From positions 498 through 57,447 of the forward strand of contig CACXIP010000030.1 in the NCBI GenBank assembly GCA_902767775.1: a DNA stretch of 56,950 nucleotides, read 5' to 3'. The notes below the pieces were generated by a model. That model was not told the DNA's origin, made no database searches, and saw only the letters and a list, made by a program, of their open reading frames with translations. The position numbers and the translations under genes are program-made. This document shows, piece after piece, positions 6,203 through 37,534 of the stretch. The DNA comes from an uncultured Prevotellaceae bacterium. Lineage in GTDB: Bacteria > Bacteroidota > Bacteroidia > Bacteroidales > Bacteroidaceae. Position 1 is the stretch's first letter. Every line of letters starts with the position of its first letter.

Positions 6203-6286
6203 GGGTGAGGGGTGAGAAGTGAGAGGTGAGAAGTGAGAGGTGAGAAGTGAGAGGTGAGAAGTGAGAGGTGAGAAGTAAGGGGTGAG
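6203..6286 (+). repeat. Twelve-unit heptamer tandem array filling the gap between regulator and kinase
   Basis: Twelve consecutive 7-bp units start at the base after the TAG stop of the response regulator: GGGTGAG twice, then alternating AAGTGAG and AGGTGAG, an AAGTAAG and a final GGGTGAG. The kinase ATG follows after 6 bp. Because AAGTGAG and AGGTGAG alternate, the array can also be read as a 14-bp repeat. It leaves no other sequence for a ribosome site, so the purine-rich units themselves must serve the kinase start. A related array follows menG at 36581. Confidence 0.95.
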
Positions 6287-6292
6287 AGATAG

Positions 6293-7183
6293 ATGATTAT
6301 GTTGTATATCATATTAGGTGTCATTATTTTGGCTTGTTTTGCTTGGCTTGTATATCATCAGCGGAAGCTGAGGATACGAGCCCACATTATGCAGGAAGCT
6401 ATCCGCAACCATGACTTCACGTTCCGGTTGCCCACTCGAGGTATGCTCTTTGGTGAACGCGCCATGCAGGAAACTCTCAACCAGATGAGTGAAACCATCC
6501 GCCAGGAAATCAATCAAAATGAGGTGGAATCCTGGGAACGATTGACACGGGTGCTGACCCATGAGATGATGAACGCTACCGCCCCCATCACCAGCATCAG
6601 TCAGTCGCTGCTCGGCCGTCCAGAGGTCAAGGACACGCCCCTTGAGGACGGCATCCAAGCCATCTATGAGACCTCCAAGCATCTGAGTGAGTTTGTGACC
6701 AGTTATCGGAAAATGTCCCAACTGGAGAAGCCTTCGTTAAGTGAGGTCGCCCTTCGTCCGTTGCTGGGTGACCTCAGCCGTACTTATCCTCAGTTAACAT
6801 GGGAAATTGACGTGCCTTTCATCACGGTGCATGCTGATTCGGGCATGCTGCGACAAGTGTTGATGAACATGGTGAAAAATGCCATCGAGGCCAAAGCCCA
6901 AAAGATGGTAGTCAAGTTAATGGAACAAAAAACGGCTACCCTATCGTATGGCAGCACCAAGCAAGTGTGTCTGTATGTAGGCAACGACGGCTTGCCCATT
7001 CCCGCTGAAGCCCGTCAGTCGGTTTTCGTGCCTTTCTTCACGACGAAACGCAGTGGCAGTGGAATCGGCCTCTCGCTGAGCCGCAGAATGATGCTTCAAC
7101 AAGGAGGCATGTTGGAATTGGCCGAACAGCCTCGCCATGGCTGCCGTGTAGGATTTGTGCTGACCATTCGTCAAATTCTTTGA
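6293..7183 (+). CDS. Sensor histidine kinase
   Basis: A 296-aa membrane kinase. It has one N-terminal helix (residues about 3-21) and almost no periplasmic part, so it probably senses a membrane or cytoplasmic signal. The kinase core is complete: H-box histidine H90 ([12 protein letters not shown]), N-box ([12 protein letters not shown]196), G1 box NDG (231-233), F-box (FVPFFTT) and G2 box (GSGIGL, 255-260). It is the partner of the receiver/Fis regulator upstream, from which it is separated only by a heptamer array, and together they sit divergently from the efflux operon. An ATG two codons further in (6299) is an alternative start. Confidence 0.92.
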
Positions 7184-7221
7184 GAGGCTTCACCTAAATT
7201 AATGAAAAGACCTGACAGTTT

Positions 7222-7725
7222 TTAGTAATTCTCAAGGATTTCCCGCGCTTTCTCTCTTCTTTTGGCTTTTGAGCTTTTCTTGGAAATCAGTTTTCCGAAG
7301 GCTTTACCTATTAGGGCAAGGAGATTACCTCCATTGGCGGGGTCAATGGCGAGTAATTGAGCATCGGTCTTGTTGAGCGCCACCATTTTATTGATGCGAT
7401 CAGCAAGACCATCATCCTTTCCTCTGCCGAAGACCACCACTTCGCGCACACCCAAATCTTTTGACACAAGAAAAACAGTGTCACGTACCTCATTGACATT
7501 GAGCAACCGACTCTCATAATTAAGATGCGAGAGCAAAAGGCTCTTGCAAGTGTCAGGCACAGAAAACAAACCCAAAGAGTCACTTACAAAGACTCCGGCA
7601 CTACTTTGCACACTCACGCTGCTGATTGGTTCAGATGTTTCCACATCGCACACCATCAACTGTCGCTGTGCTGCCACAGAAACAAAATGAAGTATCAAAA
7701 ATATGAGAAGGAAGCTTCTATTCAT
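7222..7725 (-). CDS. Small secreted protein with carboxypeptidase-regulatory-like beta-sandwich
   Basis: A 167-aa exported protein of unknown role. The signal peptide is MNRSFLLIFLILHFVSVAAQ. Residues about 20-95 (VCDVETSEPISSVSVQSSAGVFVSDSLGLFSVP...LLLSHLNYESRLL) match the CarbopepD_reg_2-type beta-sandwich found at the start of TonB-dependent receptors, but no receptor follows. The C-terminus is basic (KLISKKSSKAKRREKAREILENY). I start it at the ATG at 7725 because the signal peptide begins there; an upstream in-frame ATG at 7761 lies within the -33 box of the predicted promoter. It is convergent with the kinase gene, 38 bp apart. Confidence 0.75.
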   Translation of the reverse strand: MNRSFLLIFLILHFVSVAAQRQLMVCDVETSEPISSVSVQSSAGVFVSDSLGLFSVPDTCKSLLLSHLNYESRLLNVNEVRDTVFLVSKDLGVREVVVFGRGKDDGLADRINKMVALNKTDAQLLAIDPANGGNLLALIGKAFGKLISKKSSKAKRREKAREILENY

Positions 7726-7730
7726 AACAA

Positions 7731-7762
7731 CAAAAGTAATTGTTTTTTTGAGGTGCGACAAA
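7731..7762 (-). promoter_or_regulatory. Predicted promoter of the small secreted protein gene
   Basis: On the minus strand TTTG (7759-7762), a 20-bp spacer and TACTTTTG (7731-7738) fit the Bacteroidetes consensus closely. The -7 box ends 5 bp before the ATG at 7725, so transcription would start at or next to the start codon (leaderless or nearly so). Confidence 0.6.
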
Positions 7763-7907
7763 CTTTTTCAATCTAATTAAAAACTATTAGCAGACCTTTG
7801 CAAAACCTTTCTGTCCATCATGGTCGCTTCGTGAGAAGGATAGTGATATATCAATGCCCATATTGCTTTTTTGAAAATGCCCAACCATTTATTCTGTCTT
7901 TTATTCT

Positions 7908-7935
7908 TTTGTTTAACAAAAAAATAGTACCTTTG
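7908..7935 (+). promoter_or_regulatory. Predicted promoter of the GH2 gene
   Basis: A TTTG element (7908-7911) and a perfect -7 box TACCTTTG (7928-7935) lie 40 bp before the GH2 ATG. The spacer of 16 bp is a little short for the family, so the -33 assignment is less sure than the -7 box. Confidence 0.55.
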
Positions 7936-7975
7936 ATGTCATCTAAGATGAATCAAATACTATTTCCAAGAAAAT

Positions 7976-10630
7976 ATGAAGAACAAGACGAAAAAAGCGA
8001 CGCTCAGCCGAGCAAGTTTCAAAGTGCAGCATCTGTGTGTGCAGATGATAGTCATCGCTGCCTTTTTGAGTATTGGAACAGCCCATGCACAGGTATCGTT
8101 TGGGCGTGCCACCCTATTCAATGACGACTGGCGGTTTGCCCTTATCGGCACAGACTGGCGGGCGCCATCAGGAGGCAATCCCGCTGTGGAGGCCGTAAGC
8201 AAGGGTAAGGCAGCAGCGACAGCCGACCGCGAGCGCAACGCACAATCTGCGGTTTTTGATGACTCCGCCGCCAGCCAGCCCAACTTTGATGACTCCCGTT
8301 GGCGCCGGCAGCCACTCCCCCACGACTGGTCGGTGGAGCATCCCATGTCACCCCAACTTTTTTCATGTACGGGATACTTACCCGGCGGTGTAGGATGGTA
8401 TCGCAAGCATTTCTCAATTAAAGAGAGCAACCGTCCCTCCGACACCCAGTGGTTTGTCTATTTTGAAGGCATCTACAACCGGGCGGAAGTCTACCTCAAC
8501 GGTCATCTGCTCGGTATGCGTCCCAACGGCTATGCCTCTGTGTTATATGACATGACGCCATGGCTCAACAAGGAAGGTGACAATGTGCTCGCCGTGCGTG
8601 TAGACCACTCGCGACAAGCCGACTCTCGTTGGTATACAGGAAGCGGCATTTACAGAAATGTATGGTTGGTGGAGTCGGGTCCGGTGCATCTTGCGCAATG
8701 GGGAAGTGCCTGGAGACTCAAGCAACTGAACCGAGGTGCCGCCACTGTAGAGGTGGACGTAGAGACCACCACGGCAAAAGGTTATGAAAAGAACGTTTCC
8801 TCATTAAAAGCACAGGTGACCATCTACGATGCTCAGGGACGAGAGGTCGTACAAAAACAGACTGCCATCGGCAACCAGGAACGCCTGACTATGCAACTGA
8901 AGATATCGCAACCGCAAATATGGGATGTGGGAAGCGGTTATCTTTATACCGTAAAAACTGAGTTATGTGACGCACACACCAAAGCCGTCATCGACACCAG
9001 CAGCATGCGCATGGGTCTCAGGACATTACGTTTCGATTCAGACAAAGGCTTCTTTATCAACGGCAAAAACATCAAGGTGAAAGGTGTCTGCCTACACCAT
9101 GACGCAGGAGTATTAGGCGCTGTGGTACCCCGCGACGTGTGGGAACGGAGGCTTATCAACCTGCAGGCCATCGGTGTGAATGCCATCCGCATGAGCCACA
9201 ACCCACAGGCCCCCGTGGTCTATGACCTATGTGATTCCCTCGGTCTGCTCGTCATGGACGAAGCCAGTGACGAATGGGAGTTTCCCAAGCGGAAATGGCT
9301 GGAAGGATGGAACCGCGGAACACCAGGTTATGAAGGTTCATATGACTTTTTTGAGGAATGGATAGACCGCGATGTGGCTGACATGGTGCGCCGCGACCGC
9401 AACCATCCCAGTGTTTTCCTATGGTCTATCGGCAATGAGGTAGATTATCCCAACGACCCCTACACCCATCCTGTGCTCGACGGCAGCAGCATCACGCAAC
9501 CCATGTACGGAGGCTACAAACCTGGGCAACCGGAAGCCCAGCGTATCGGGCGTATTGCGGAGCGGCTCACAAAGGTGGTGAGGCAGATAGACAGCAGCCG
9601 TCCTACGACGGGCGCATTGGCTGGCGTGGTGATGTCGAACGAGACCTCATATCCACAGGCCGTCGATGTGGTGGGCTACAATTATACTGAGAGCCGCTAT
9701 GATGAAGACCACAGGACCTATCCCAAACGCGTGATATACGGTTCGGAGAACCGTCATGACTTGGAGGCATGGAAAGCCGTAGCAGAGCACGACTTCATTT
9801 TCGGACAATTCCTCTGGACCGGTATCGACTACCTTGGAGAAAGCGGTGCATGGCCGGCACGAGGTTCCTCTGCTGGACTGCTCGACCTGAAAGGAGAACG
9901 GAAACCTCAGGGCTGGTGGCGTGCCTCACTTTGGAGCGAGAAGCCTGTGTGCTACATCGGCACATATCCCACGATGGGCAATGGTGGCAACCGCCGTGGT
10001 CGCCAGGCAGGACGGCGTGACCCAGGCGTGTCAATCTATGCACAAGACACGTGGAACTATCGTGACGGACAGACCATCCGTGTGGTGTGCATGACCAACC
10101 AAGAGCAAGCACGACTGCTGCTCAATGGTAAGGAAATCGCTGCACCAAAGGCAAAAGACCAGACAACAGGAGCCATATGGTGGGACATTCCCTATCAACC
10201 GGGAGTGCTCAGGGCAGAGGCAATGGACAACGAAGGCCATGCTGTGGCATCTTATGAAATAGCCACCACAGGAAGACCTGCAGCCCTGAGGTTGACGGCA
10301 GACAAGACCACGCTGACGGGGCGCGGACGAATCGCTCACGTCATCATCGAGGTCATTGACTCGGAAGGGAGAACCGTGCCACTTTCCGACAACGAGATAT
10401 CCGTACGTGTGACTGGTGCAGGCCGTCTGTTGGGACTTGAGGGCGGCGACATGAGCGACACCAGCAACCTGCGCGACTGGCGGCAGCGTGTAGTCCGCGG
10501 CAGACTACTTGCCTATGTAGAGGCCACACAAGAGGATGGCACCATCAACGTGAGGGCAGATTCGCCATTGCTCGAGGGAGGAGAGAAGGAAATAGGGATA
10601 AAAGATAAAAGATTAAAGATTAAAGATTAA
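7976..10630 (+). CDS. Secreted glycoside hydrolase family 2 (beta-galactosidase-like)
   Basis: An 884-aa exported GH2 enzyme. A signal peptide with a long basic n-region ends near residue 39 (GTAHAQ). Then come the sugar-binding jelly roll (about 45-240, with GGVGWYRKHF and SGIYRNVWL), an immunoglobulin-like domain (about 250-350), the TIM barrel (about 355-640), and C-terminal beta-sandwich domains (about 690-870) of the kind seen in Bacteroidetes GH2 proteins. The acid/base Glu is E488 (SIGNEVD) and the nucleophile Glu is E591 (YGSENRH). The substrate could be a beta-galactoside or another beta-linked sugar; sequence alone does not decide. No susC/susD pair is adjacent. The last few residues (DKRLKIKD) are encoded by the start of a heptamer array that also contains the stop codon, so the native C-terminus has been overwritten or extended. 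Confidence 0.92.
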   Translation: MKNKTKKATLSRASFKVQHLCVQMIVIAAFLSIGTAHAQVSFGRATLFNDDWRFALIGTDWRAPSGGNPAVEAVSKGKAAATADRERNAQSAVFDDSAASQPNFDDSRWRRQPLPHDWSVEHPMSPQLFSCTGYLPGGVGWYRKHFSIKESNRPSDTQWFVYFEGIYNRAEVYLNGHLLGMRPNGYASVLYDMTPWLNKEGDNVLAVRVDHSRQADSRWYTGSGIYRNVWLVESGPVHLAQWGSAWRLKQLNRGAATVEVDVETTTAKGYEKNVSSLKAQVTIYDAQGREVVQKQTAIGNQERLTMQLKISQPQIWDVGSGYLYTVKTELCDAHTKAVIDTSSMRMGLRTLRFDSDKGFFINGKNIKVKGVCLHHDAGVLGAVVPRDVWERRLINLQAIGVNAIRMSHNPQAPVVYDLCDSLGLLVMDEASDEWEFPKRKWLEGWNRGTPGYEGSYDFFEEWIDRDVADMVRRDRNHPSVFLWSIGNEVDYPNDPYTHPVLDGSSITQPMYGGYKPGQPEAQRIGRIAERLTKVVRQIDSSRPTTGALAGVVMSNETSYPQAVDVVGYNYTESRYDEDHRTYPKRVIYGSENRHDLEAWKAVAEHDFIFGQFLWTGIDYLGESGAWPARGSSAGLLDLKGERKPQGWWRASLWSEKPVCYIGTYPTMGNGGNRRGRQAGRRDPGVSIYAQDTWNYRDGQTIRVVCMTNQEQARLLLNGKEIAAPKAKDQTTGAIWWDIPYQPGVLRAEAMDNEGHAVASYEIATTGRPAALRLTADKTTLTGRGRIAHVIIEVIDSEGRTVPLSDNEISVRVTGAGRLLGLEGGDMSDTSNLRDWRQRVVRGRLLAYVEATQEDGTINVRADSPLLEGGEKEIGIKDKRLKIKD

Positions 10631-10656
10631 AAATTAAAAATTAAAAATTAAAGATT
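10601..10656 (+). repeat. Eight-unit heptamer array spanning the GH2 stop codon
   Basis: Units AAAGATA, AAAGATT (three times), AAAAATT (three times) and AAAGATT follow one another without gaps. The GH2 stop TAA (10628-10630) lies inside the array, so the first units encode the end of the protein. Confidence 0.9.
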
Positions 10657-10762
10657 GAAGTTTCCCACTCCATTCAAATGCGCTAATCTTTGATTTTTCA
10701 CGAATTAGGGAATTAGAGAATTATTTCATTACGATAAGAATTAAAAAGGAATTGGAGAAGAA

Positions 10763-10852
10763 ATGGCAAGCCATTCTGCAATATATTGCCTGAGTATCGA
10801 ACGCCAAAAACGCAACGACAAGATGGGCTTTTTTCACTGCCTTCCTGACTAA
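10763..10852 (+). CDS. Possible 29-aa small protein
   Basis: The frame starts ATGGCAAGCCATTC and is preceded by GGAGAAGAA at ideal distance; it ends TAA at 10850-10852. The peptide (MASHSAIYCLSIERQKRND, then KMGFFHCLPD) is basic, with two cysteines and no membrane segment. I recognise no family. It may be a real small protein, a fragment of a lost gene, or chance. Confidence 0.2.
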   Translation: MASHSAIYCLSIERQKRNDKMGFFHCLPD

Positions 10853-10870
10853 AAGAAAAACTGGACTATC

Positions 10871-10910
10871 GTAATCCCAAACAAAAAATAGCTTTTTTGT
10901 TTGGGATTAC
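10871..10910. repeat. Perfect inverted repeat, 18-bp arms, 4-bp loop
   Basis: The left arm is 10871-10888 (GTAATCCCAAACAAAAAA), the loop TAGC (10889-10892), the right arm 10893-10910, with no mismatch. The A and T tracts flank the loop and there is no T-run after the stem, so it is not a canonical terminator. The right arm carries the TTTG -33 elements of the downstream promoter, which suggests an operator or a cruciform-forming control site. Confidence 0.85.
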
Positions 10911-10957
10911 TCTTGTTTTACACTACCTTTGCATAATCAAGACAATCATTACCTTTG
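10900..10957 (+). promoter_or_regulatory. Two interlocked promoters of the TPM gene
   Basis: Promoter 1: TTTG (10900-10903), 20 bp, TACCTTTG (10924-10931). Promoter 2: the last TTTG of that -7 box (10928-10931) is also placed as a -33 element, 18 bp before a second TACCTTTG (10950-10957). Both boxes are followed by GCAT(A/C)ATCAA, so the region is a 26-bp direct duplication. The ATG is at 10982. Confidence 0.6.
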
Positions 10958-10981
10958 CATCATCAATAAAATAGATATTAT

Positions 10982-12205
10982 ATGAAAAAACTCATAAAAA
11001 GTTGTTTGAATGGGTTGGCGTTAAGCGCCAAGTCGTGGTTGTTTTTCGCTCTTCTGCTGCCCATCCTGTTTTTCATCGTTCATCCGTTTGACCCCATGTT
11101 GGTGTTGGGTGTTTCGGTGATAGGCGTGCTTCTCTATTTCTCCGCGAAATGGAAGAAAGAAGCACCTGCCGCCCAGCAGGCAACTGAAGAGGCTATACGT
11201 GCCGGAGTGAAATTTGAAGACCCCCACCCCACTGACGAGACAAAAGAGAGTCCGCTGAAGCGTTACAAGAACAAGTATTACACTGCTCTTTGGACCTCTA
11301 TCCTCTCTGCCTGTATGATGAGCTGTTCCTATCAGATGATATACAACAACACATCAAAGAGGACGTCTACTGTTGCCTCCGTTCCAGCCAGCCCCGCCAC
11401 CGACGCGGTTAAAACCGGACGCACCGTGGCTGCCGCTGACTCCGATTCTGTGACCATATGGAATGCCTCCAATATCAAGATGGTGCACCTTGCTGATGCC
11501 AGCCAATATGTGACCAACAGCGACAGCATCCTGAGTGACAGCACTGTGGCTGCAATGAATGCCCAGCTGAAGGAACTCGACTCTATCGTCGGTGTGAAAC
11601 CCGCCGTGGTGGTATGCCGGCGTGTGGATGAGGGCGGCACCTACCGCACCGCCGTCGACCTTATCAACAAATATAAAATTGGCAACAAAGAAACAGGTCG
11701 TGGTATATGTGTTGTCGTAGCCTACGACCAGCGGCAATACACCATCGCCCCAAGTCGTGACCTCGAAGGCGACCTGACAGATGTGGAATGCAGCAGACTT
11801 GGCCGCAATTGCTTGAAGCCTTACCTGAAGAGCGAGTTGCCCGACAGCGCCCTGCTTTGCCTTACCCAGGCTCTCTATGACACACTGAAGGATGAGGAAG
11901 CCGATGAGGGCATCAACATCTCCTCGCTGAAGAGTGGCGGATTGTTCAGCGGTGAGAATGGTACGATGATGCTCACCATCCTCGTGTTGTGCATGATATT
12001 CGGCATCTACGATGACAAGAACAAGTGGAACAAACCCGCCAAACATTTAGCCAAAGTTGTCGACCAACCTGAAGAACCCAAAGATGATGAGCCTGAGGAG
12101 GAAGTAAAGAAGGAGTCGCCCAGACCAGAAGAGCCCCAGAAACCCAAAGGCGGTCATTATGGTGGTGGTTCATCCGGTGGCGGAGGAGCCACGGGAGATT
12201 GGTGA
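10982..12205 (+). CDS. TPM-domain membrane protein (YgcG-like)
   Basis: A 407-aa protein. Two N-terminal membrane segments (about 16-36 and 38-55), a third hydrophobic stretch near 100-118, then a TPM domain at about residues 160-300: LSDSTVAAMNAQLKELDSI, AVVVCRR and GICVVVAYDQRQYTIAPSRDLEGDL are typical of this family. A further membrane helix follows (about 325-342), then an acidic Pro/Glu-rich tail ending in a Gly-rich GGGSSGGGGATGDW, as many TPM proteins do. TPM domains have been linked to phosphatase-like activity and to photosystem or membrane-protein maintenance in other organisms; the role here is unknown. A small lipoprotein gene follows. Confidence 0.8.
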   Translation: MKKLIKSCLNGLALSAKSWLFFALLLPILFFIVHPFDPMLVLGVSVIGVLLYFSAKWKKEAPAAQQATEEAIRAGVKFEDPHPTDETKESPLKRYKNKYYTALWTSILSACMMSCSYQMIYNNTSKRTSTVASVPASPATDAVKTGRTVAAADSDSVTIWNASNIKMVHLADASQYVTNSDSILSDSTVAAMNAQLKELDSIVGVKPAVVVCRRVDEGGTYRTAVDLINKYKIGNKETGRGICVVVAYDQRQYTIAPSRDLEGDLTDVECSRLGRNCLKPYLKSELPDSALLCLTQALYDTLKDEEADEGINISSLKSGGLFSGENGTMMLTILVLCMIFGIYDDKNKWNKPAKHLAKVVDQPEEPKDDEPEEEVKKESPRPEEPQKPKGGHYGGGSSGGGGATGDW

Positions 12206-12210
12206 TTTTT

Positions 12211-12253
12211 TTAGGAGTTTAGGAGTTTAGGAGTCTGGGAGTTTAGACATATG
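12211..12253 (+). repeat. Octamer tandem array after the TPM gene, with conserved tail
   Basis: Three TTAGGAGT units, one CTGGGAGT and TTAGACATATG begin 5 bp after the TPM stop codon. The last 16 bp (12238-12253, GGAGTTTAGACATATG) recur exactly at 24546-24561 at the end of another octamer array. Confidence 0.9.
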
Positions 12254-12301
12254 CTCTTTTTGAGGAGTGTAGGAAAGTAATAATTATAAAACTGAAATGA
12301 T

Positions 12302-13870: not shown

Positions 13871-13902
13871 ATTGATTGGAATGAAGTGATGATTTTCGGT
13901 GC

Positions 13903-14046: not shown

Positions 14047-14071
14047 CCTAATCAAAAAACTAAAAGCAAAC

Positions 14072-23160: not shown

Positions 23161-24462
23161 ATGCGAAAGTTGAGCCAAATAATCCGACAATTCCTGTTTC
23201 TTCTTTTTCTCGTTATGTCACTCAACGGCATGGCGCAGGATTTTGACCGGTATTTCACCGATGCCACGCTACGCCTTGACTATATATTCTCTGGTGATGT
23301 GAGAAGACAGGAAATATCCGTCGACGCCCTCCACCAACTGCCCCGGTGGTATGGCAAGCGCCACCATCTTTCGGAGGTGCCGATGAAAGGCAACGGACAG
23401 GTTGTTGTCCGAGACCACACCACAGGTTCCGTCATCTACCGCAACTCCTTCTCCACCCTATTTCAGGAATGGCTGTCCTACCCTGAGGCACAGACCATAC
23501 GCCGATCGTTTGAGAACGTGTTTCTCACCCCTATGCCCAAGGACACCGCCGACGTGACCATAGAACTCTACAACACCCACCAGGAGGTGATGGCAACAAT
23601 GACCCATACTGTTGTGCCAACCGACATTCTCATTCGCCGAACTGGCTATGATAACGTCACACCATATGTCACCCTACAGCAAGCAGCCGACACCACCCGT
23701 TGCATCCACATCGCATACGTAGCTGAAGGCTATCAGGAAAGTGAGATGAACGTCTTCCTTGACGATGTGCGTGAGGCGATGTCTGCCCTCTTTGCCCATG
23801 AGCCGTTCAAGTCACTCCGCAACCGTTTCTATATTGTCGCTCTCCTCAGTTCTTCGGTAGACAGCGGCACCAGTTCACCTCGCAAGGGTATCTGGAAGAA
23901 CACAGTTCTCCACTCTCACTACGACACGTTCTACAGCGAGCGCTACCTGACCACGCTTCATCTGAAGAGTCTTCATGACTGTCTGGCAGGCACTCCCTAT
24001 GAACACATCATCGTATTGGTGAACTCAGAGCAATATGGCGGTGGCGGCATACTCAACTCCTACAACCTAACCAGCACCCACCACTCACGCTTCAAGCCCG
24101 TGGTAGTGCATGAGTTCGGTCACAGTTTTGCCGGACTGGGCGACGAATATGCCTATGAGACAGAAGAAGTGCCGATGTACCCACATGATGTGGAGCCATG
24201 GGAGCCCAACCTCACTACATTGGCAGACTTCCACAACAAATGGGAAGACCTGATTGCCACAGGCACCCCCATCCCCACTCCACCTACCAAAGACAGGCAA
24301 TCCATCCAAAGCCGTATCGGCGTCTTTGAAGGCGCCGGCTATTCACCAAGGGGTGTCTACCGTGCCTGTCAGGACTGCCGCATGCGCACCAATGAGTACC
24401 CCGTATTCTGTCCCGTCTGCGACAGGGCATTGAGGAGGGTTATTGAGTTTTACACGGAGTAG
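23161..24462 (+). CDS. Secreted M64-family metallopeptidase
   Basis: A 433-aa exported zinc peptidase. The signal peptide ends near residue 25 (LNGMAQ). An N-terminal beta-rich M64 propeptide-type domain (about 30-155) is followed by the catalytic domain with HEFGHSFAGLGDEY: zinc ligands H317, H321 and probably D328, catalytic E318. M64 includes the Clostridium ramosum IgA peptidase, but most Bacteroidetes members have no known substrate, so IgA cleavage should not be assumed. The C-terminus has a four-Cys cluster (CQDCRMRTNEYPVFCPVC). It lies 67 bp after the aminotransferase; its stop is followed at once by an octamer array. Confidence 0.92.
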   Translation: MRKLSQIIRQFLFLLFLVMSLNGMAQDFDRYFTDATLRLDYIFSGDVRRQEISVDALHQLPRWYGKRHHLSEVPMKGNGQVVVRDHTTGSVIYRNSFSTLFQEWLSYPEAQTIRRSFENVFLTPMPKDTADVTIELYNTHQEVMATMTHTVVPTDILIRRTGYDNVTPYVTLQQAADTTRCIHIAYVAEGYQESEMNVFLDDVREAMSALFAHEPFKSLRNRFYIVALLSSSVDSGTSSPRKGIWKNTVLHSHYDTFYSERYLTTLHLKSLHDCLAGTPYEHIIVLVNSEQYGGGGILNSYNLTSTHHSRFKPVVVHEFGHSFAGLGDEYAYETEEVPMYPHDVEPWEPNLTTLADFHNKWEDLIATGTPIPTPPTKDRQSIQSRIGVFEGAGYSPRGVYRACQDCRMRTNEYPVFCPVCDRALRRVIEFYTE

Positions 24463-24561
24463 TTGGTCGTTTGGTCGTTTGGGCGTTTGGTTGTTTAGTC
24501 GTTTGGTCGTTTAGTTGTTTGGGTGTTTGGGTGTTTAGGAGTTTAGGAGTTTAGACATATG
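24463..24561 (+). repeat. Twelve-unit octamer array directly after the M64 stop codon, with conserved tail
   Basis: The first unit begins at the base after TAG (24460-24462). Units: TTGGTCGT twice, TTGGGCGT, TTGGTTGT, TTAGTCGT, TTGGTCGT, TTAGTTGT, TTGGGTGT twice, TTAGGAGT twice, TTAGACAT, then ATG. The last 16 bp equal 12238-12253. Confidence 0.95.
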
Positions 24562-24610
24562 ATTTCTTTTGGAGTTTTTGAGATTGGGTATTTTGTCTTC
24601 TCACCCATCA

Positions 24611-24631
24611 ACTATGAACTATGAACTATGA
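24611..24631 (+). repeat. Three ACTATGA heptamers at the TPR gene start
   Basis: Each unit contributes an ATG (24614, 24621, 24628) in a different frame; only the last opens the TPR gene. The frame from 24621 stops after six codons. Confidence 0.85.
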
Positions 24632-25596
24632 ACTGCCATAAGTTCCTTTGTGGTGTAATTATTGCCATACTGTTCATCGCCTCGGTATGGGCAGAGACGG
24701 AAACGATGCCGTCTCTACCGTTTAGCATGTGCGTGGTGGACGACGAACCTCGTGACCCAGTAAGGTTGGGTATGGCAATAGAGTATTTCCAAAGCGGGAA
24801 ATACCATGAGGCACTTTTGATTTTTGAGAAGCTCGACCAGGAATACGAACTCAATGCCCGTTATCATGCCTATATGGGCGTCTGCTGTTATTATGACTGG
24901 CTGTATGAGGAAGCCTGCCGATATCTGGATGAGGCGATTCCCCAACTCGATGCCTTTGCACCCCATGAGCGGTCAGTCTACTATTATTGCAATGGAGAGA
25001 GTCATTTCCAACTGCACCAATACAAGGAAGCCATCCCCTTTTTTGAGCGTGCGCTGACCGTATGCTATGAAAATGAGAAAGGCGACATCCACTATCGTCT
25101 TGGTCTGTGCCATATGTTTGCAGAGGAATGGCAGCAAGCCCACGACCATTATCAATCCGCTCTTGACAACTACCTGACCTATCGCGACACTCCCGACATG
25201 CGTGCCCGCATCCATCAGACCGCACATATGATGAAAGGTTGCGAGGAACATCTTAAAAACCAAAAGGGAGGACTGACAGAGGCCGATTTCGGTTCGGCAT
25301 TTGCAGAAAACACCAATCAAAAAGACAGTATCAATCAGATTGACATGAGCAATCAACTGGAGATTGCCAATGAGATAGAGAGCGCCCTTCCTACCGAGTC
25401 AGCCATCAACTTGCCTACGATTCCCTTGCTGACCGCCGACAGCATCCATATCTCAGCACCTATCATCAAACCATCAATTATCAACAACACAACGCAGGTG
25501 TCCAATGTTGTACACAAGGACACCATCCGGAGCGAAGTGCCCCGAACTGTCAACATCCAAGATATCTACAACCAGAAGATTGATGTGGCGGAATAG
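24628..25596 (+). CDS. Secreted tetratricopeptide-repeat protein
   Basis: A 322-aa exported protein. A signal peptide (FLCGVIIAILFIASVWA) is followed by TPR-like helical hairpins at about residues 47-180: MAIEYFQSGKYHEALLIFEKL, HAYMGVCCYYDWLYEEACRYLDEA, YYYCNGESHFQLHQYKEAIPFFERAL and HYRLGLCHMFAEEWQQAHDHYQSAL. The rest is a polar, Asn/Ile-rich tail without a fold I recognise. TPR proteins act as protein scaffolds; nothing here names the partner. The gene ends 4 bp from the convergent cdd gene. Confidence 0.8.
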   Translation: MNCHKFLCGVIIAILFIASVWAETETMPSLPFSMCVVDDEPRDPVRLGMAIEYFQSGKYHEALLIFEKLDQEYELNARYHAYMGVCCYYDWLYEEACRYLDEAIPQLDAFAPHERSVYYYCNGESHFQLHQYKEAIPFFERALTVCYENEKGDIHYRLGLCHMFAEEWQQAHDHYQSALDNYLTYRDTPDMRARIHQTAHMMKGCEEHLKNQKGGLTEADFGSAFAENTNQKDSINQIDMSNQLEIANEIESALPTESAINLPTIPLLTADSIHISAPIIKPSIINNTTQVSNVVHKDTIRSEVPRTVNIQDIYNQKIDVAE

Positions 25597-27565: not shown

Positions 27566-27601
27566 AACAATAACGTTAAAATGGCCTTTTTATTGCATCA
27601 G

Positions 27602-30852: not shown

Positions 30853-30987
30853 GACTGAAAACATTAAAAAATAAAACAAAGACGATAATAAACGCTGTTC
30901 TGGATTGCTGTCAACGGTGGCGTACCATCTTGACATCCCATTCAAGAGAAGAGAGGAAGTTTTTACAGAAAATCTTTCAAAAAAAAT

Positions 30988-31017
30988 AAAAAAGTCTCAC
31001 AGCTGTGAGACTTTTTT
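30988..31017 (-). terminator. Rho-independent terminator after ridA
   Basis: A perfect palindrome GTCTCACAGCTGTGAGAC (30994-31011) flanked by A6 and T7 runs, 24 bp after the ridA stop. Being symmetric it could also stop plus-strand transcription. Confidence 0.85.
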
Positions 31018-31041
31018 TGTGAGTTGAAGTTTTTTCTGCTT

Positions 31042-31422: not shown

Positions 31423-31529
31423 ATTTGATGAATGTTTAGGTTGAATTGCCAAATCATACTTTCACTTGCAAAAATAGCCATTTTTTTCGGAATATGAACG
31501 ACTAAGGGTATTTATCTTCGGTTCATTTT

Positions 31530-32108
31530 TTATTCCTTGGTGAAATCGTCTATCTCCTCGATGATTTGTGTGTAATCATCCTGATTCTTGAAGTGGACTT
31601 TCAATCCGACAGCGCCACCCAGCAGAGCACAGACCACACACATCACCACAATGTAGATACTGTCTTCACCACCGGTCACCTTCCACATCTCATATCCGAA
31701 ATAGGCCAGCCATAGGATGATGAGAGGAATTCCTATCTTCAACCAGTCCTGGTCAAGTTTCTTTGCCTTTGCCATTTTAATCCGAGCCTGAACCAAGTCT
31801 TTCTCATAGACACGGCTGTTGAGATAACGGCCAGTATATTGGGTATAGACAAAAACGATGAGCATCAGGATGCAGGTGGCGAGCCAAAGCCATATCGACA
31901 TGCCAGTCAATTTGACGAAAGCCCAATATGAATAGGGAACCATCAAGATGCACAGGACGGACACTATTGTATATCTTCTGTTGATGCCCTTGACATTTCG
32001 CCGCATGGAGCGACGGAATACTCTGTCGTTGACGATTTCCTGCTTCTGCAGTTTTTCCTTCAGGATGTTCATTTGCTGGCGCATCTCTTCGAAATCATTA
32101 TTGTTCAT
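31530..32108 (-). CDS. Membrane protein encoded with an ECF sigma factor (putative anti-sigma)
   Basis: A 192-aa protein with a polar, coiled N-terminus (about 1-45, rich in Gln, Glu, Lys) and four hydrophobic segments at about 47-65, 70-88, 125-140 and 152-170, plus a charged C-terminus. It starts 12 bp after the sigma-factor gene and must be co-transcribed with it. In that position a membrane anti-sigma factor is expected, and the cytoplasmic N-terminal coil would be the sigma-binding part. No zinc-binding or FecR-type anti-sigma motif is visible, so the role is inferred from position. Confidence 0.65.
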   Translation of the reverse strand: MNNNDFEEMRQQMNILKEKLQKQEIVNDRVFRRSMRRNVKGINRRYTIVSVLCILMVPYSYWAFVKLTGMSIWLWLATCILMLIVFVYTQYTGRYLNSRVYEKDLVQARIKMAKAKKLDQDWLKIGIPLIILWLAYFGYEMWKVTGGEDSIYIVVMCVVCALLGGAVGLKVHFKNQDDYTQIIEEIDDFTKE

Positions 32109-32120
32109 GGTTTACGGGTT

Positions 32121-32600
32121 TTAATTGTTTGACATTTGTTTCAACTGCTCTTTGATTCTGAACAAGCGCACGCTGACATTTTTGGTGGAAATACCGACGA
32201 TTTGCCCTATTTCCTCATAAGAGAGGTTTTCGAGCCATAGCAAGACGATAGCCCTGTCGAACGGTTTCAGTTGTGAGATTCGCTGGTGGAGCATATCCAC
32301 CTGTTTGGTGTCCTCATCACTGTCCTTAAACAGGTTGATGTCCATTGAAAGCGAAGATTCCGGTTGTCTCCGCTTTTTACGGTCAATCGAGATACAAGTG
32401 TTGAGCGCCACACGATAGATCCATGTTTTGATGTCGCTCCGGTGCTCAAAACCATCAAATCCCTTCCAAAGGTTGATGAGCGACTCCTGAAACAGGTCGT
32501 TCACCTCGTCCGAATCATTGGAGAACATATAGCACACAGTATATATGGTGCTTTTATTCTTCATGATGGTCTGCTGAAATTGTTTTTCTTTTGTTGTCAT
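32121..32600 (-). CDS. RNA polymerase sigma factor, ECF subfamily
   Basis: A 159-aa ECF sigma factor. Region 2 contains NDSDEVNDLFQESLINLWKGFDGFEHRSDIKTWIYRVALNTCIS, including the DLFQE and FxxWIYRVAxN motifs; region 4 is LKPFDRAIVLLWLENLSYEEIGQIVGISTKNVSVRLFRIKEQL with the helix-turn-helix. It would direct polymerase to a small regulon, possibly its own promoter. It is followed by its membrane partner. Upstream (32601-32712) there is an A/T-rich stretch, but no consensus -33/-7 promoter. Confidence 0.93.
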   Translation of the reverse strand: MTTKEKQFQQTIMKNKSTIYTVCYMFSNDSDEVNDLFQESLINLWKGFDGFEHRSDIKTWIYRVALNTCISIDRKKRRQPESSLSMDINLFKDSDEDTKQVDMLHQRISQLKPFDRAIVLLWLENLSYEEIGQIVGISTKNVSVRLFRIKEQLKQMSNN

Positions 32601-32712
32601 GTTGCGTTTTGTTCAGATGATTTTTACCCGTTTGACGTACATTGTTCGGAAAAACTACAGAAAACTTAAAAAAATTTTTGATGCATCTGATTATATAGGG
32701 TTAATGAAAGGT

Positions 32713-33744
32713 TTATCGGTATTTCTCAAGGTGCTCAATGAGCAATTCTACGAGGCGAGGGATGGCATATTCATCAATATCGCTCTCACGAATCCAGATG
32801 TAGTCAGGTGGCAGCATGGGACGAGAGACCGTTTCCCACAGATAGAAGTCCGCCCACAGAATGCGATGGGTAAGCACGTGTTTCACCCTTTGCTGAAGGA
32901 GCGTGAGCACCCCTGTGCTAAAGTCGATACCGCAGTCACCTGCCATGCCTTCACTTTGGGATTCCACAAGCAGCGGTTCCCACAGCCCCTGCCAGATGTC
33001 TCCCCCACCCCGTTGGTGAATCGCCACATCACCATTGCAGCGTATATAATAATATGTGAGGTATCGCTCACGCACCTTCATCTTCCTCAGTTTTACAGGC
33101 AATTCCTCCACCCTATGTTCCCTCCATGCCACACATGACTCAGCCAATGGACATTCCGTGCAATGGGGTGAACGAGGTGTGCACTGCATCGCCCCAAAGT
33201 CCATCATCGCCTGATTAAATGCTGAAGGTACGTCATGAGGAAGGAGGGATTGAGCAAGAGCAGCAAACTCCTTTTTCCCCTCGGAAGAGTTGATGGGCGT
33301 GTCGATGCCGAAATAGCGGGCAAGCACCCGATATACGTTGCCATCTACTGCCGCAACAGGAAGAGAGAAGGCGATGCTCCCTATGGCTGCCGCAGTGTAG
33401 TCGCCTACCCCTTTCAGACTTCGGATGCCTTCGTATGTAGTAGGGAATCCACCCATCTCTACGATTTGCCGCGCCGCCTGATGTAGATTGCGGGCACGTG
33501 AGTAATAGCCCAGTCCCTGCCACTCTCGCAGCACCTCATCCTCAGAAGCGTCAGCCAATTTTTCCACTGTAGGCCACCGGTTCATGAACCGTTCCCAATA
33601 TGCCCATCCCTGCTGGATGCGTGTCTGTTGGAGGATGACCTCTGACAACCAGATGGCATAAGGGTCGCGTGTGCCCCGCCATGGAAGTTCACGAGCATGG
33701 GTCTTGAACCAGCGAAGTAGAGAGGACGGCAGTTCTGAGTTCAT
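32713..33744 (-). CDS. mutY: A/G-specific adenine glycosylase
   Basis: A 343-aa base-excision-repair enzyme that removes adenine mispaired with 8-oxoguanine. Catalytic E35 (SEVILQQTRIQQ), the helix-hairpin-helix LKGVGDYTAAAIGSIAF, catalytic D134 (AAVDGNVYRVLAR), and the iron-sulfur ligands C188, C195, C198 and C204 are all present, followed by a C-terminal NUDIX-like 8-oxoG recognition domain. The ATG at 33744 places the protein at the usual length; in-frame codons up to 33864 cross the phoH promoter region. It is divergent from phoH. Confidence 0.94.
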   Translation of the reverse strand: MNSELPSSLLRWFKTHARELPWRGTRDPYAIWLSEVILQQTRIQQGWAYWERFMNRWPTVEKLADASEDEVLREWQGLGYYSRARNLHQAARQIVEMGGFPTTYEGIRSLKGVGDYTAAAIGSIAFSLPVAAVDGNVYRVLARYFGIDTPINSSEGKKEFAALAQSLLPHDVPSAFNQAMMDFGAMQCTPRSPHCTECPLAESCVAWREHRVEELPVKLRKMKVRERYLTYYYIRCNGDVAIHQRGGGDIWQGLWEPLLVESQSEGMAGDCGIDFSTGVLTLLQQRVKHVLTHRILWADFYLWETVSRPMLPPDYIWIRESDIDEYAIPRLVELLIEHLEKYR

Positions 33745-33807
33745 AGTTAACAATTGATTGTTTAGAGTTTTGAGTGAAACTCCCCAACTCCTTTTTGTCT
33801 GCTTTTG

Positions 33808-33857
33808 CAAAATTACTATAAAAAATAAAGATAATTGCAGAAATTTGCCTAATTTTG
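33808..33857. promoter_or_regulatory. Back-to-back -7 boxes of mutY and phoH
   Basis: TAATTTTG on the minus strand at 33808-33815 faces mutY; TAATTTTG on the plus strand at 33850-33857 faces phoH, 43 bp before its start. Neither has a clear TTTG -33 element at 17-23 bp, so confidence is moderate. Confidence 0.4.
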
Positions 33858-33900
33858 CAGCCAAATATCACACAGACTTTTACAGAACAACATACAGACA

Positions 33901-34860
33901 TTGATAGAGAAGCATATTGTACTTGAAGACATCGACCCCGTGGTATTCTACGGCATCAACAACGTTCACCTGCAAATGGTCAAATCGTTGTTCCCCAAGT
34001 TGCGCATTGTAGCAAGGGGCAATGTCATCAGGGTTCTCGGCGATGACGATGAGATGGAGCGCTTTGAGGACAACATTGAGGCGATGCGCAAACACGTTGA
34101 GCGTTTCAACACCATCAATGAGGAAGACATCCTCGACATTATCAAAGGGCGAAAGACAAAGGCCGAGAGTGTGAAGGGCGTGATTGTATACAGCATTTCC
34201 GGCCGTCCCATCAAGAGCCGGAGCGCCAACCAACAAGCACTCATCGACGCTTATGAGACTTGCGACATGGTTTTTGCTGAAGGTCCTGCCGGAACCGGCA
34301 AGACTTATCTAAGCATCGCCCTTGCCGTAAAAGCTTTGAAGGAGAAAACCGCCAAGAAGATTATCCTAAGCCGCCCTGCCGTGGAAGCAGGAGAGAAATT
34401 GGGCTTTCTTCCTGGCGACATGAAGGACAAGATAGACCCCTATCTACAACCCCTATATGATGCGCTTGAGGACATGATTCCCGCCAGTAAACTTCAGGAG
34501 ATGATGGAGAAGCGCATCATCCAGATAGCCCCCCTCGCATTTATGAGAGGACGCACACTCAGTGACGCCGTCGTCATCCTCGACGAGGCTCAGAACACCA
34601 CAGCAGCCCAGATACGTATGTTTCTCACCCGCATGGGTTGGAACACGAAGATGATTATCACCGGCGACCTGACCCAGATAGACCTTCCCCGCGGACAGCG
34701 CAGTGGCCTGAGCGAGGCCTTGGAGTTGCTGACCGACATCGAGGGCATCGGTTTTGTAAGGATGGACAAGAAAGATATTGTCCGCCACAAACTCGTCACC
34801 CGCATTGTCAATGCATATGAGACAGCCGACAGAGCCCACGGCAAGGAAGAAGCCTCATGA
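33901..34860 (+). CDS. phoH: PhoH family ATPase
   Basis: A 319-aa PhoH-like P-loop protein. The N-terminal KH-like part (about 10-75) is followed by the ATPase domain: Walker A EGPAGTGKT at 127-135, ILSRPAVEAGEKLGFLPGDM, Walker B DAVVILDEAQN, and the conserved TGDLTQIDLP and GIGFVRM segments. PhoH proteins are thought to act in RNA metabolism; the exact role is open. The start is TTG: the family N-terminus MIEKHIVLEDIDPVVFYGIN reads directly from it and no ATG is available. It is the first gene of a long plus-strand block. Confidence 0.93.
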   Translation: MIEKHIVLEDIDPVVFYGINNVHLQMVKSLFPKLRIVARGNVIRVLGDDDEMERFEDNIEAMRKHVERFNTINEEDILDIIKGRKTKAESVKGVIVYSISGRPIKSRSANQQALIDAYETCDMVFAEGPAGTGKTYLSIALAVKALKEKTAKKIILSRPAVEAGEKLGFLPGDMKDKIDPYLQPLYDALEDMIPASKLQEMMEKRIIQIAPLAFMRGRTLSDAVVILDEAQNTTAAQIRMFLTRMGWNTKMIITGDLTQIDLPRGQRSGLSEALELLTDIEGIGFVRMDKKDIVRHKLVTRIVNAYETADRAHGKEEAS

Positions 34861-34892
34861 CATCAAACAACAATCCAATACAAGAATAAAAG

Positions 34893-35843
34893 ATGAAAGC
34901 ATTAACCAGAACAGACTTTTCGTTTGCAGGACAAACCAGTGTTTACCATGGCAAGGTACGTGATGTTTACACCATCAATGACGACTTGATGGTGATGGTA
35001 GCCACCGACCGCATTTCTGCTTTCGATGTGATTCTGCCCAAGGGCATTCCTTTCAAAGGCCAGGTCCTCAATCAGATTGCCGCCAAATTTCTTGACAGCA
35101 CAAGTGACATCTGCCCCAACTGGAAGTTGGGCACCCCCGACCCGATGGTGACCGTGGGTTTGAAATGTGAGGGATTCCGTGTGGAGATGATTATCCGCTC
35201 CATCCTTACAGGTTCGGCATGGCGCGCCTACAAAGACGGTTGCCGCGAATTGTGTGGGGTGGCATTGCCCGACGGAATGGTGGAGAACCAACGTTTCCCT
35301 GAGCCCATCATCACCCCCACGACCAAGGCTGACGAAGGTCATGACATGAACATCTCCCGTGAGGAGATAATCAGTCAGGGACTGGTGTCCGCAGAGGACT
35401 ATGCCGTAATGGAAGACTACACACGTCGTCTGTTCGCACGCGGTCAGGAGATAGCTGCCCGCCACGGACTCATCCTGGTGGATACCAAATATGAGTTTGG
35501 CAAGCGTGACGGCAAAGTATATCTCATCGATGAGATTCATACTCCCGACAGTAGCCGCTATTTCTATGCCGATGGCTACGAGGAGAAACTCGCCGCCGGC
35601 GAGCCCCAGCGCCAACTCTCCAAGGAATTTGTCCGCCAATGGCTTATTGAACACGGTTTCATGAACGAACCGGGTCAGACGATGCCCGTCATCACCGACG
35701 AATATGCAGAGAGCGTGAGTGAGCGATATATTGAACTCTATGAGCACATCACCGGCGAGACCTTCGTCAAGAGTGCTTCCGACGGCGACTTAGCCGCCCG
35801 CATTGAGAAGAATGTGAGCGATTATCTGGCCACCCTCCGATAG
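34893..35843 (+). CDS. purC: Phosphoribosylaminoimidazole-succinocarboxamide synthase
   Basis: A 316-aa SAICAR synthetase of the long (type I) form, which joins aspartate to CAIR with ATP in purine synthesis. Recognisable parts: [74 protein letters not shown] (metal and substrate site). It begins 32 bp after phoH and ends 1 bp before menG. Another purine gene, purM, lies further along the same block. Confidence 0.96.
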
Positions 35844-35844
35844 G

Positions 35845-36579
35845 ATGTACGAACAAGAGAAAATCAAGCCCTACGATGAGGGTGGTGCTAAAGGTGAACA
35901 AGTCGAACAAATGTTTGACGCCATCGCCTCGCGTTACGACACCCTCAACCACTGGATGTCGTTGGACATCGACCGCAGTTGGCGTCGGAAAGCCATCAAT
36001 CAGTTGGCACCATTCTCACCCAAGGAGATTCTTGACATTGCCACCGGAACAGGTGACTTCGCCATCCAGACTGCCAAGATGCTACACCCCATCAGACTGG
36101 TGGGAGCCGACATCTCGGAAGGCATGATGAAAGTGGGTCGAGAAAAAGTGGCCCGTGAGCATTTGGACAGCATCATCTCGTTTGCCAAAGAAGACTGTAT
36201 GCAGTTGTCGTACGCCGATGAGAGTTTCGACGCCGTTACTGCAGCCTTCGGCATCCGCAACTTCGCTGACCTCGACCAAGGGTTGAGAGAGATGTGCCGT
36301 GTACTTCGTCCCGGAGGGCATCTTAGTGTTGTGGAACTCACCCACCCCACACGCTTCCCGATGAAGCAACTGTTCAAAATCTACAGCCACACCATCCTTC
36401 CCATATATGGCAGGTTGGTATCCAAAGACAAAAGAGCCTACAGCTATCTGACCGCCACCATCGAGGCATTCCCTCAGGGAGAGGAGATGATGAACATTCT
36501 CCGGAAAGCCGGTTTCAAGTCCGCCTCCTTCAAACGGCTCACCTTTGGCATCTGCACAATGTATTTGGCGGAGAAGTGA
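35845..36579 (+). CDS. menG: Demethylmenaquinone methyltransferase
   Basis: A 244-aa class I methyltransferase of the UbiE/MenG family, the last step of menaquinone synthesis, using S-adenosylmethionine. Motifs: [29 protein letters not shown], the SAM site [45 protein letters not shown] and [28 protein letters not shown]. It starts one base after the purC stop. The TGA stop (36577-36579) lies in purine-rich sequence that runs straight into a heptamer array. Confidence 0.95.
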
Positions 36580-36580
36580 G

Positions 36581-36650
36581 AAGAAAGAGGTGAGAAGTGA
36601 GGGGTGAGAGGTGTGAGGTGAGAGGTGTGAGGTGAGAGGTGTGAGGTGAG
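36581..36650 (+). repeat. Ten-unit heptamer array after the menG stop codon
   Basis: Units AAGAAAG, AGGTGAG, AAGTGAG, GGGTGAG, then AGGTGTG and AGGTGAG alternating three times. The same AGGTGAG/AAGTGAG/GGGTGAG units make the array at 6203-6286. Confidence 0.92.
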
Positions 36651-36715
36651 AGAATGATGTATAAAATAAGGACGTGATGCAACGCGACCGTTAAGATAAC
36701 AATATATACTGACAA

Positions 36716-37459
36716 ATGGAAAAATACGGACTGATAGGATATCCTCTTGGGCACTCGTTCTCCATCGGATATTTCAATGAGAAATTCCAAAACGAAGGCA
36801 TTGATGCCGAGTATGTGAATTTTGAGATTCCCCAGATAGACATGTTGTCTGAGGTGATTGCCTCCAACCCTGATTTGGTGGGGCTCAACGTGACCATCCC
36901 TTACAAGGAGAAAGTCATCAGCTACCTCGACTATGTTAGTCCTGAGGCCCGCACCATAGGTGCTGTCAACGTCATCAGCGTCATCCACAAAAACAAACGT
37001 GTCATCCTGAAGGGATACAACAGCGATGTGATTGGTTTCACAAAGAGCATCAAGCCCATGCTGGAACCCTTTCACAAGAAGGCTCTGATACTTGGAACTG
37101 GCGGTGCCTCCAAGGCAATCAATTATGGGCTGCGCTCACTGGGGCTGGAGACCGTTTTTGTCAGCCGTTTCGACCGTCCCGGCACCATCCGTTACGACCG
37201 CATCACTCCTGACGACATCCATGAGTACAATGTGATAGTAAACTGCACGCCCTGCGGTATGTTTCCCCACACCAATGAATGCCCCCTGCTGCCCTACGAG
37301 GCGATGGACAGCCACAACCTGCTATACGACCTCATCTACAACCCCGACGAAACCATGTTCATGCACAAGGGAGCAGAGCACGGAGCCACCGTGGTTAACG
37401 GTCTTGAAATGCTGTTGCTGCAAGCCTTCGCAAGTTGGGAGTTTTGGCATAACAGGTGA
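36716..37459 (+). CDS. aroE: Shikimate dehydrogenase
   Basis: A 247-aa NADP-dependent enzyme of aromatic amino-acid synthesis. The substrate site is GLIGYPLGHSFS, NVTIPYKEKV with catalytic K64, and GYNSDVIGF with D104; the NADP site is LILGTGGASKAINYGL; and the C-terminal NGLEMLLLQAFASWEFW is typical. It is slightly short compared with the E. coli enzyme (272 aa), as Bacteroidetes members are. It is framed by tandem-repeat arrays on both sides (36581-36650 and 37468-37534). Confidence 0.95.
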   Translation: MEKYGLIGYPLGHSFSIGYFNEKFQNEGIDAEYVNFEIPQIDMLSEVIASNPDLVGLNVTIPYKEKVISYLDYVSPEARTIGAVNVISVIHKNKRVILKGYNSDVIGFTKSIKPMLEPFHKKALILGTGGASKAINYGLRSLGLETVFVSRFDRPGTIRYDRITPDDIHEYNVIVNCTPCGMFPHTNECPLLPYEAMDSHNLLYDLIYNPDETMFMHKGAEHGATVVNGLEMLLLQAFASWEFWHNR

Positions 37460-37467
37460 TTTTTATA

Positions 37468-37534
37468 CCGGAAAGACCGGAAAATCCGGAAAGTCCGGAA
37501 TATCCGGAATATCCGGAAAGTCCGGAAATACCGG
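37468..37534 (+). repeat. Seven-unit nonamer array between aroE and purM
   Basis: CCGGAAAGA, CCGGAAAAT, CCGGAAAGT, CCGGAATAT twice, CCGGAAAGT, CCGGAAATA and a terminal CCGG. It starts 8 bp after the aroE stop. Most junctions form TCCGGA, which is self-complementary, so neighbouring units can pair into small hairpins. Confidence 0.93.

Follow-up and report, generated by a model that had tools for sequence, protein, structure and literature searches.

What is it about the end of a gene that would make a short tandem repeat begin there, almost on top of the stop codon? This question is raised by a stretch of 56,950 nucleotides from an uncultured Prevotellaceae bacterium (assembly GCA_902767775.1, contig CACXIP010000030.1, positions 498 to 57,447), which as a whole is called the window here and in which the initial annotation had noticed arrays of 7-, 8- or 9-bp units at or near the stop codons of six genes. 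All six arrays are present, both by Tandem Repeats Finder (TRF) and in the raw sequence, and their starts lie between 34 nt before and 5-8 nt after the end of the stop codon; the GH2 and menG arrays overlap the stop and the other four start 0-8 bp past it (Table 1). The names given to the six upstream genes are backed by Pfam domains (Response_reg and HTH_8, GH2 domains, TPM, Peptidase_M64, Ubie methyltransferase and Shikimate_dh_N). The inventory of arrays holds for these six, but it overlooked a seventh array, whose unit is the reverse complement of the CATAGTT family, and the switch of the M64 array to another unit at its far end. That all of the arrays lay downstream of plus-strand genes is an effect of the window, since arrays elsewhere adjoin the stops of minus-strand genes too. 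The explanation we favor, with a probability of about 0.5, is that these are short arrays resident in spacers, with units mostly of 7-10 bp, whose birth is often seeded at, or anchored by homology to, the 3' ends of genes, that they are largely neutral, and that their units are copied between loci.

Table 1. Arrays and associated features in the window (positions are those of the window)
Feature	Unit or motif	Period (bp)	Positions	Strand	Location or remark
Array, response regulator	GGTGAGA/AGTGAGA	7 (14-bp higher order)	6204-6288	+	1 bp past stop 6200-6202
Array, GH2 gene	GATTAAA	7	10597-10660	+	covers stop 10628-10630 and the preceding ~ten codons
Array, TPM gene	TTTAGGAG	8	12210-12246	+	4 bp past stop 12203-12205
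Distal junction, TTTAGGAG family	GTTTAG followed by ACATATG		12241-12253	+	
Array, M64 gene	TTTGGTCG/TTTAGTCG, then TTTAGGAG	8	24463-24552	+	0 bp past stop 24460-24462
Distal junction, M64 array	GGAGTTTAG followed by ACATATG		24546-24561	+	as at the TPM-gene array
Seventh array	AACTATG	7	24610-24634	+	start side of the gene after M64; TRF and sequence
Array, menG	GAGAGGT/GAGAAGT	7	36571-36652	+	over the last two codons (GAG AAG) and stop 36577-36579
Imperfect palindrome			36670-36689	+	past the menG array; resembles recurring hairpins GGACGCGATGTATCGCGTCC in other spacers
Array, aroE	CCGGAAAAT	9	37465/37468-37539	+	5-8 bp past stop 37457-37459; palindromic, foldable

The first question is whether the tie to stop codons extends beyond the window. 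The window genome (G000, 4.64 Mb) was sampled as the window and 60 stretches of 20 kb each, together 1.26 Mb, with arrays called by TRF at a score of at least 50 and genes called by our own hexamer script, the starts of which are less certain than the stops. The spacer tests excluded arrays within called genes, at stretch ends or of other periods, and spacers longer than 450 bp, the last limit being lifted in the long-spacer test. The sample holds 140 non-coding arrays (111 per Mb), with periods mostly of 7 (48/140), 8 (29/140) and 9 bp (14/140) and none of 6 bp, and the period of arrays within genes was a multiple of 3 in 32 of 37. Among the arrays in spacers with a stop on some side, 38 of 69 start within 5 bp of that stop or overlap it, compared to a mean of 17.2 and a maximum of 28 in 1000 rounds of random placement in the same spacers. 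For start codons the count within 5 bp was 12 of 58 versus 11.5 expected, and the peak on that side is a smaller one at about 0-15 bp. In the relative G009 the count at stops was 7 of 17 against 1.7 expected, and with a slightly wider set of periods it was 10 of 18 against 6.1 in G019 (p 0.015), 7 of 16 against 3.8 in G008 (p 0.035), 5 of 13 against 3.4 in G044 (p 0.18), 2 of 5 against 2.3 in G006 and 1 of 5 against 0.6 in G010. The stretches of G006, G008, G019 and G044 were chosen from contigs with array matches and the densities in these four are therefore biased upward. Short-unit arrays are scarce in the samples of G016 (1), G040 (2) and two outgroup genomes (1). When only long spacers between neighbors on one strand were considered, with at least 80 bp of spacer remaining, seven genomes gave 90 arrays, of which 25 have their start no more than 5 bp from a stop, compared to 4.5 under uniform placement (maximum 13 in 2000 rounds), and 6 are that close to a start, with the reservation that some of the long remainders are, as judged from orthologues, later insertions themselves.

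A further set, assembled regardless of repeats by scanning named genome contigs with the menG protein, comprises 80 menG loci (L266-L345), mostly from metagenome-assembled genomes called Prevotella or Prevotellaceae, the closest menG being those of Prevotella sp. RGIG10223 from yak rumen (95%) and Prevotella sp. Tb.RUG.168 (91%). Since one gene region is common to all of them, these loci are not independent sites. Non-coding arrays with periods up to 30 bp were found in 52 of the 80 loci and short-unit arrays in 37; of 80 short-unit arrays, 47 are no more than 5 bp away from a stop compared to 34.9 expected and 28 are as close to a start compared to 33.3, and where at least 80 bp of spacer is left, 6 of 18 arrays are at the stop against 1.4. 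A period of 22 bp accounts for 23 of the 138 non-coding arrays of this set and forms a class separate from the 7-8 bp arrays. An even spread of array starts through the spacers, which the initial annotation had regarded as speaking against the tie, was not seen; comparison of TRF array starts with random placement gave a peak at stops, and the tie is thus real in the sample of the window genome and in some of its relatives.

Are the arrays old parts of these gene ends or were they gained? Orthologous ends were compared for the window and three stretches chosen as array-rich (L031, L038 and L039), with orthologues whose alignment came within 25 residues of the C-terminal end and with the relatives' spacer lengths extrapolated from protein matches. 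The spacer between menG and aroE is 136 bp here and 11 and 12 bp in two relatives, that behind the response regulator and before the kinase is 90 bp versus 32 bp in G009, where there is a similar purine-rich stretch and no long array, and that behind the gene at L038 2654 is 113 bp versus 12 bp in G009. Between M64 and the next gene there are 165 bp here versus an overlap in G009 and G019 going by extrapolated ends, or 264 versus 44 bp with a later start call. Relative to the orthologous spacers the arrays are therefore gains. The initial annotation had also proposed that they serve as spacers for translational coupling, and this was rejected as the spacer lengths are not conserved and TRF found no menG array in 75 of 78 relatives. 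An array at the menG stop was called in the other three, at a TRF threshold that is low for menG and aroE, and one of these calls (L271) looks weak; the number of menG units differs between close relatives, about eight in L267 and about two in L266, which is among the 75. At the aroE stop an array was called in 10 of 74 relatives, where two calls, L270 and L309, look weak and L288 with its 13-bp array is not counted, and the units are largely different ones, including TCCGGATTA, AGTTAAAGGGA, AATGACTGAT, GAAATATT, TAAATGA, AAGTAAAA and GTGAAGTGTGGAGT.

Species repeatedly differ in the unit found at one and the same orthologous gene end. The gene end at L039 17541 carries GATGAAA here, CGTTGAA in G019, nothing in G006 and, beginning about 20 nt past the stop, a 10-mer with CTAGA in G009. 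At one convergent pair the unit is GATGAAG in the window genome and GATGAAA in G009, and in G019 it is the 8-mer AAGGGTAA; three genes that are followed by GGCAAGG arrays in G019 have GATGAAA at one and nothing at two in the window genome. The presence of some array appears to be correlated across orthologous stops (G009, 4/15 versus 4/67, Fisher p 0.034; G019, 4/10 versus 5/35, p 0.093), which is no more than suggestive; four of the eight double rows in this comparison come from one convergent spacer.

If arrays are gained at stop codons, the next question is what they do to the end of the protein and what they are made from. Among 15 genes that carry an array in the window genome and have an orthologue, about 11 protein ends read as matching the orthologue and 4 differ by a few residues, so the ends are mostly native-looking and replacement of protein tails by arrays is not the rule. 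GH2 may be an exception: its C-terminal Pfam domain stops at residue 869 of 884 and therefore its last residues may be array-encoded, with no orthologue in the comparison set. As the arrays of the window stand behind metabolic and regulatory genes whose protein ends are mostly native, phase variation is also spoken against, in so far as coding switches are concerned. The periodicity of the array, in turn, often runs back over the stop into the coding sequence. Of 76 stop-abutting arrays entered from all sampled genomes of the genus, 74 were detected, and in 21 of these 74 it does so for at least 5 nt, a count that array-encoded tails such as the possible one of GH2 would also raise, compared to 3.2 (maximum 7 in 60 rounds) when the arrays were attached to randomly chosen stops of their own genome and 4.6 (maximum 9) when the stop codon was kept. 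For at least 8 nt the count is 13 of 74 against 1.4 and 2.0, respectively, and for the 3 nt of the stop itself 27 of 74 against 13.2 and 20.8. The 10-bp unit in L287, AAT GAC TGA T, is sequence of the gene itself. In L306 the final codons with the stop match the unit as well, and in menG GAG AAG TGA does, with several relatives sharing the two terminal residues.

The arrays at stops also have a preferred strand. Among 146 codirectional arrays from the sampled genomes of the genus, those at a stop and far from a start have more G than C on the sense strand in 22 cases, more C than G in 4 and are balanced in 9, and those near a start and far from a stop show the reverse, 1, 9 and 2, respectively. 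The 54 arrays near neither end are mixed (19 G>C to 22 C>G), and on the stop side of the 80 menG loci the count is 37 to 8. Background composition was rejected as the cause, because the GC skew of the sequence past array-free stops is -0.02. An mRNA 3'-end signal, which had been offered as one explanation, finds little support in its terminator form since five of the six window arrays fold weakly and only the palindromic CCGGA array folds strongly. G-quadruplexes were rejected as well, the motif being present in just 2 of the 117 short-unit arrays of the window genome.

How do these arrays compare to known repeats? Cyanobacterial STRR are tandem heptamers between genes, and the comparison with them made in the initial annotation is apt. 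Calothrix heptamers are mentioned by Rehm et al. 2015 (PMC4692102), and the parts of that account compared here describe the closest relatives in geometry, the GGGAATC and GGGGA(C/T)T repeats of Xanthomonas and Nostoc, which have a period of 7 and are intergenic; most of their downstream copies are on the coding strand and lie within 50 bp of a stop or overlap it, and most upstream copies, near starts, are on the non-coding strand. The remark that a tie to stop codons was not known as described therefore does not hold for these heptamers; for Prevotella it stands in that no report of stop-anchored arrays was found by title among the open-licence literature, which does not prove absence. Here too the period of non-coding arrays peaks at 7 with 8 next, several families having 8-10 bp, and the G-rich strand is the sense strand at stops except in G019 alone. 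At starts the picture is divided, since the G-rich strand is the non-coding one by 9 to 1 in the clean cases but by 12 to 16 in the 80 menG loci. What differs is that the Xanthomonas and Nostoc repeats, as far as that account goes, have one unit type that forms G-quadruplexes, whereas there are about ten families of 7-10 bp here, several per genome, with neither those units nor more than the occasional G-quadruplex motif noted above, and that the present arrays have, besides, different units at orthologous ends and in one family a fixed distal junction. The arrays of these Prevotella relatives are, on the sections compared, the Xanthomonas/Nostoc geometry with other units.

MacGregor 2015 (PMC4679880) describes, in the portion used here, TAACTGA repeats in Beggiatoaceae, cyanobacteria and some Bacteroidetes, mostly just before starts, with one set directly past a stop in a Bacteroidetes genome. 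These are likewise intergenic heptamers with a stop codon in the unit at many loci, but they have one unit and sit mostly upstream of starts, whereas the present arrays have many units and are mainly at stops; doubled TAACTGA does not occur in 346 loci including the window. Many families, precise anchoring to stops in several species, differing units at one gene end, register into the coding sequence and the fixed junction of one family were not found in what was compared of these two accounts. GTAG-tagged repetitive extragenic palindromic (REP) elements, the termini of which often provide a TAG stop, are also repeats beside or overlapping coding ends, but according to the excerpts available they are hairpins and not short-unit arrays (PMC3733652). 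The BrickBuilt miniature inverted-repeat transposable element (MITE) of Porphyromonas gingivalis is an array-containing element in a related member of the order; in the description drawn on here it differs in having a 23-bp minisatellite, a distance of at least 49 bp from coding sequences and its own leader and tail (PMC4596501).

The explanation most consistent with these results is the one given at the outset, that short arrays are often born at gene ends by homology and are then largely neutral. Birth would begin at the stop codon or across it, by duplication or by a switch of template from another array, drawing on the last codons and the stop, and slippage would afterwards alter the copy number. 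Units, and in the TTYAGGAG family longer foldback-like elements too, would be copied ectopically to other gene ends; the junction counts given below for that family speak for such copying. A new array at a stop would be harmless and so would persist, because its first copy still terminates the protein; the strand with stop codons and few C's would be the one tolerated best behind a gene, and no benefit to the cell would be required. We infer the birth step, the template switching and the neutrality. Several results weigh against this explanation. The excess per base at stops over the rest of long spacers is not predicted under pure neutrality, and neither is the strand polarity at stops, because array-free stops are without GC skew. 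The polarity itself is not uniform: the 45 of 146 codirectional arrays that lie near both gene ends are mixed (22 C>G to 14 G>C), stops in G019 are even (4 to 4), and the start-side polarity is not seen in the 80 menG loci (16 G>C to 12 C>G). Starts of the window genome also show some excess when the limit is set at 10 bp (22 of 58 versus 15.1, p 0.017). Of the arrays in which the stop is not wholly inside, the stop of the gene is not clearly in register with stops of the units (6/30 versus 3.5), and the reading of protein ends as native is biased, as orthologues whose alignment stopped more than 25 residues short of the C terminus had been dropped.

A different explanation is that the arrays are the ends or remnants of mobile elements of the foldback or MITE type that insert preferentially behind stops. 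Unit families (GGTGAGA, GATTAAA, GATGAAA, TTTAGGAG, TAGTTCA and others) do recur at unrelated loci in the window genome and in other species of the genus, and ACA stands at the distal junction in 23 of the 24 arrays of the TTYAGGAG family, which come from the window genome (20) and G009 (4). The junction pattern GGAGTTYAGACANTA occurs 60 times in the window genome, 53 times in G009 and 53 times in G052 and is present in 15 of 100 genomes of the genus, whereas its reversed control occurs not at all in the window genome and once in all 100. Among the matches listed, the variable position is uniformly T in the window genome and C in G009, as though the copies had been homogenised. Pairs of arrays of this family in inverted orientation flank, in G009, two near-identical segments of 72 bp and one of 83 bp, an arrangement we take to be like that of foldback elements, and at least six inverted pairs 56-64 bp apart are among the matches listed there. 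Set against this, no inverted pair was found in the sampled stretches of the window genome, the GATGAAA, GATTAAA and GGTGAGA families at stops share no flank by eye, and the differing aroE units of several species have no visible common core. The copying mechanism suggested in the initial annotation thus applies to at least one family, with its fixed junction in 60 copies and its foldback-like copies, and as an account of the arrays in general we consider mobile elements unlikely.

RNA loads Rho where it is C-rich and G-poor. Read inward, toward the gene, the arrays would be just that and could load Rho and halt antisense or read-through transcription, and read outward they would be G-rich and inert. 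The clean polarity of codirectional arrays at stops and starts fits such a role, as does the antisense strand, which is unstructured in five of the six window arrays, and the same geometry in Xanthomonas as far as it was compared. We nevertheless find the role improbable, for most orthologous stops are without a TRF array (75 of 78 for menG and 64 of 74 for aroE), the samples of G016 and G040 have few arrays, and the 80 menG loci lack the polarity on the start side. Position alone carries a similarly low probability. According to it ancestral spacers were so short that any insertion would adjoin a stop, and the relative's spacer is indeed 35 bp or less for 5 of the 10 array spacers that have an orthologue; spacers of that length, however, hold just about 9% of the stop-bearing spacer DNA, and the peak remains when at least 80 bp of other spacer is present, both in the seven genomes and in the 80 loci, although some of these remainders are possibly later insertions. 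That 7- and 8-bp units with a stop codon act as fail-safe stops closing all three frames is very improbable: at least half of the units contain a stop on the sense strand in 37 of 49 stop-abutting arrays (antisense, 20 of 49) and three frames are closed in 30 of 49, but arrays also occur on the start side, stops on the sense strand are few or absent in the CCGGA and GTCCGAC families, and a survey, in the part considered, finds no selection for additional stops in eubacteria (PMC6764699).

It is also conceivable, though unlikely, that the end of translation is what makes a stop codon a hot spot for new tandem repeats. The ribosome-free G-rich transcript would re-anneal to the DNA as an R-loop, and template switching would proceed from the stop onward with the last codons and the stop as homology. 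If so, the same process would explain the repeats of Xanthomonas and Nostoc, and stop codons would become visible in the mutation patterns of DNA. Several phyla have been found to carry heptamer repeats between genes, and the compared parts of the papers give no settled origin. What makes the present arrays useful is that the same stop can be compared over many species, with an array, with none or with another unit, and that young arrays seem to show their seed, by which the origin of such repeats becomes a question of strain comparison. Spacer length and the sequence behind the stop turn over fast in these genomes, and it would be a mistake to take them for regulation by default.

Some minor observations were made on the neighborhood of the arrays. 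Palindromes resembling REP hairpins, often with GTAG just before, stand beside some arrays (L023 6915, L033 308, L037 2783 and 16289, L180 5489, and the window at 36670-36689). REP hairpins carry GTAG or CGTC tags, and those of the GTAG type are associated with a transposase. In the G019 spacer orthologous to 40039-40073 of the window there are tandem repeats of about 40 bp with CCCTCCCAAAGGGAGGG hairpins just past the stop, which are not in the window genome or G009. At L031 13693-13772 two convergent genes each have the same unit at the stop, inverted from one to the other, and a long hairpin could form from them. GAGATTT arrays adjoin a conserved segment of about 75 bp beginning with AAGCTTCGCTTGATTGTCGGCTGCACCTCGGCATACTGAAAGC (L039 17662-17825, L028 41-181, L019 1411-1557, L017 13224 and L048 14737), on both sides of it in L039, L028 and L019, and this is a separate repeated element. 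At L037 2783-16489 and L180 5489-15863 many arrays of several families are clustered in long spacers with an apparently repeating order of modules. Finally, at L009 899, 2939 and 4159 three neighboring genes have similar 3' ends with a TAGTTCA array at the same place in each, and therefore arrays may spread by gene duplication too.

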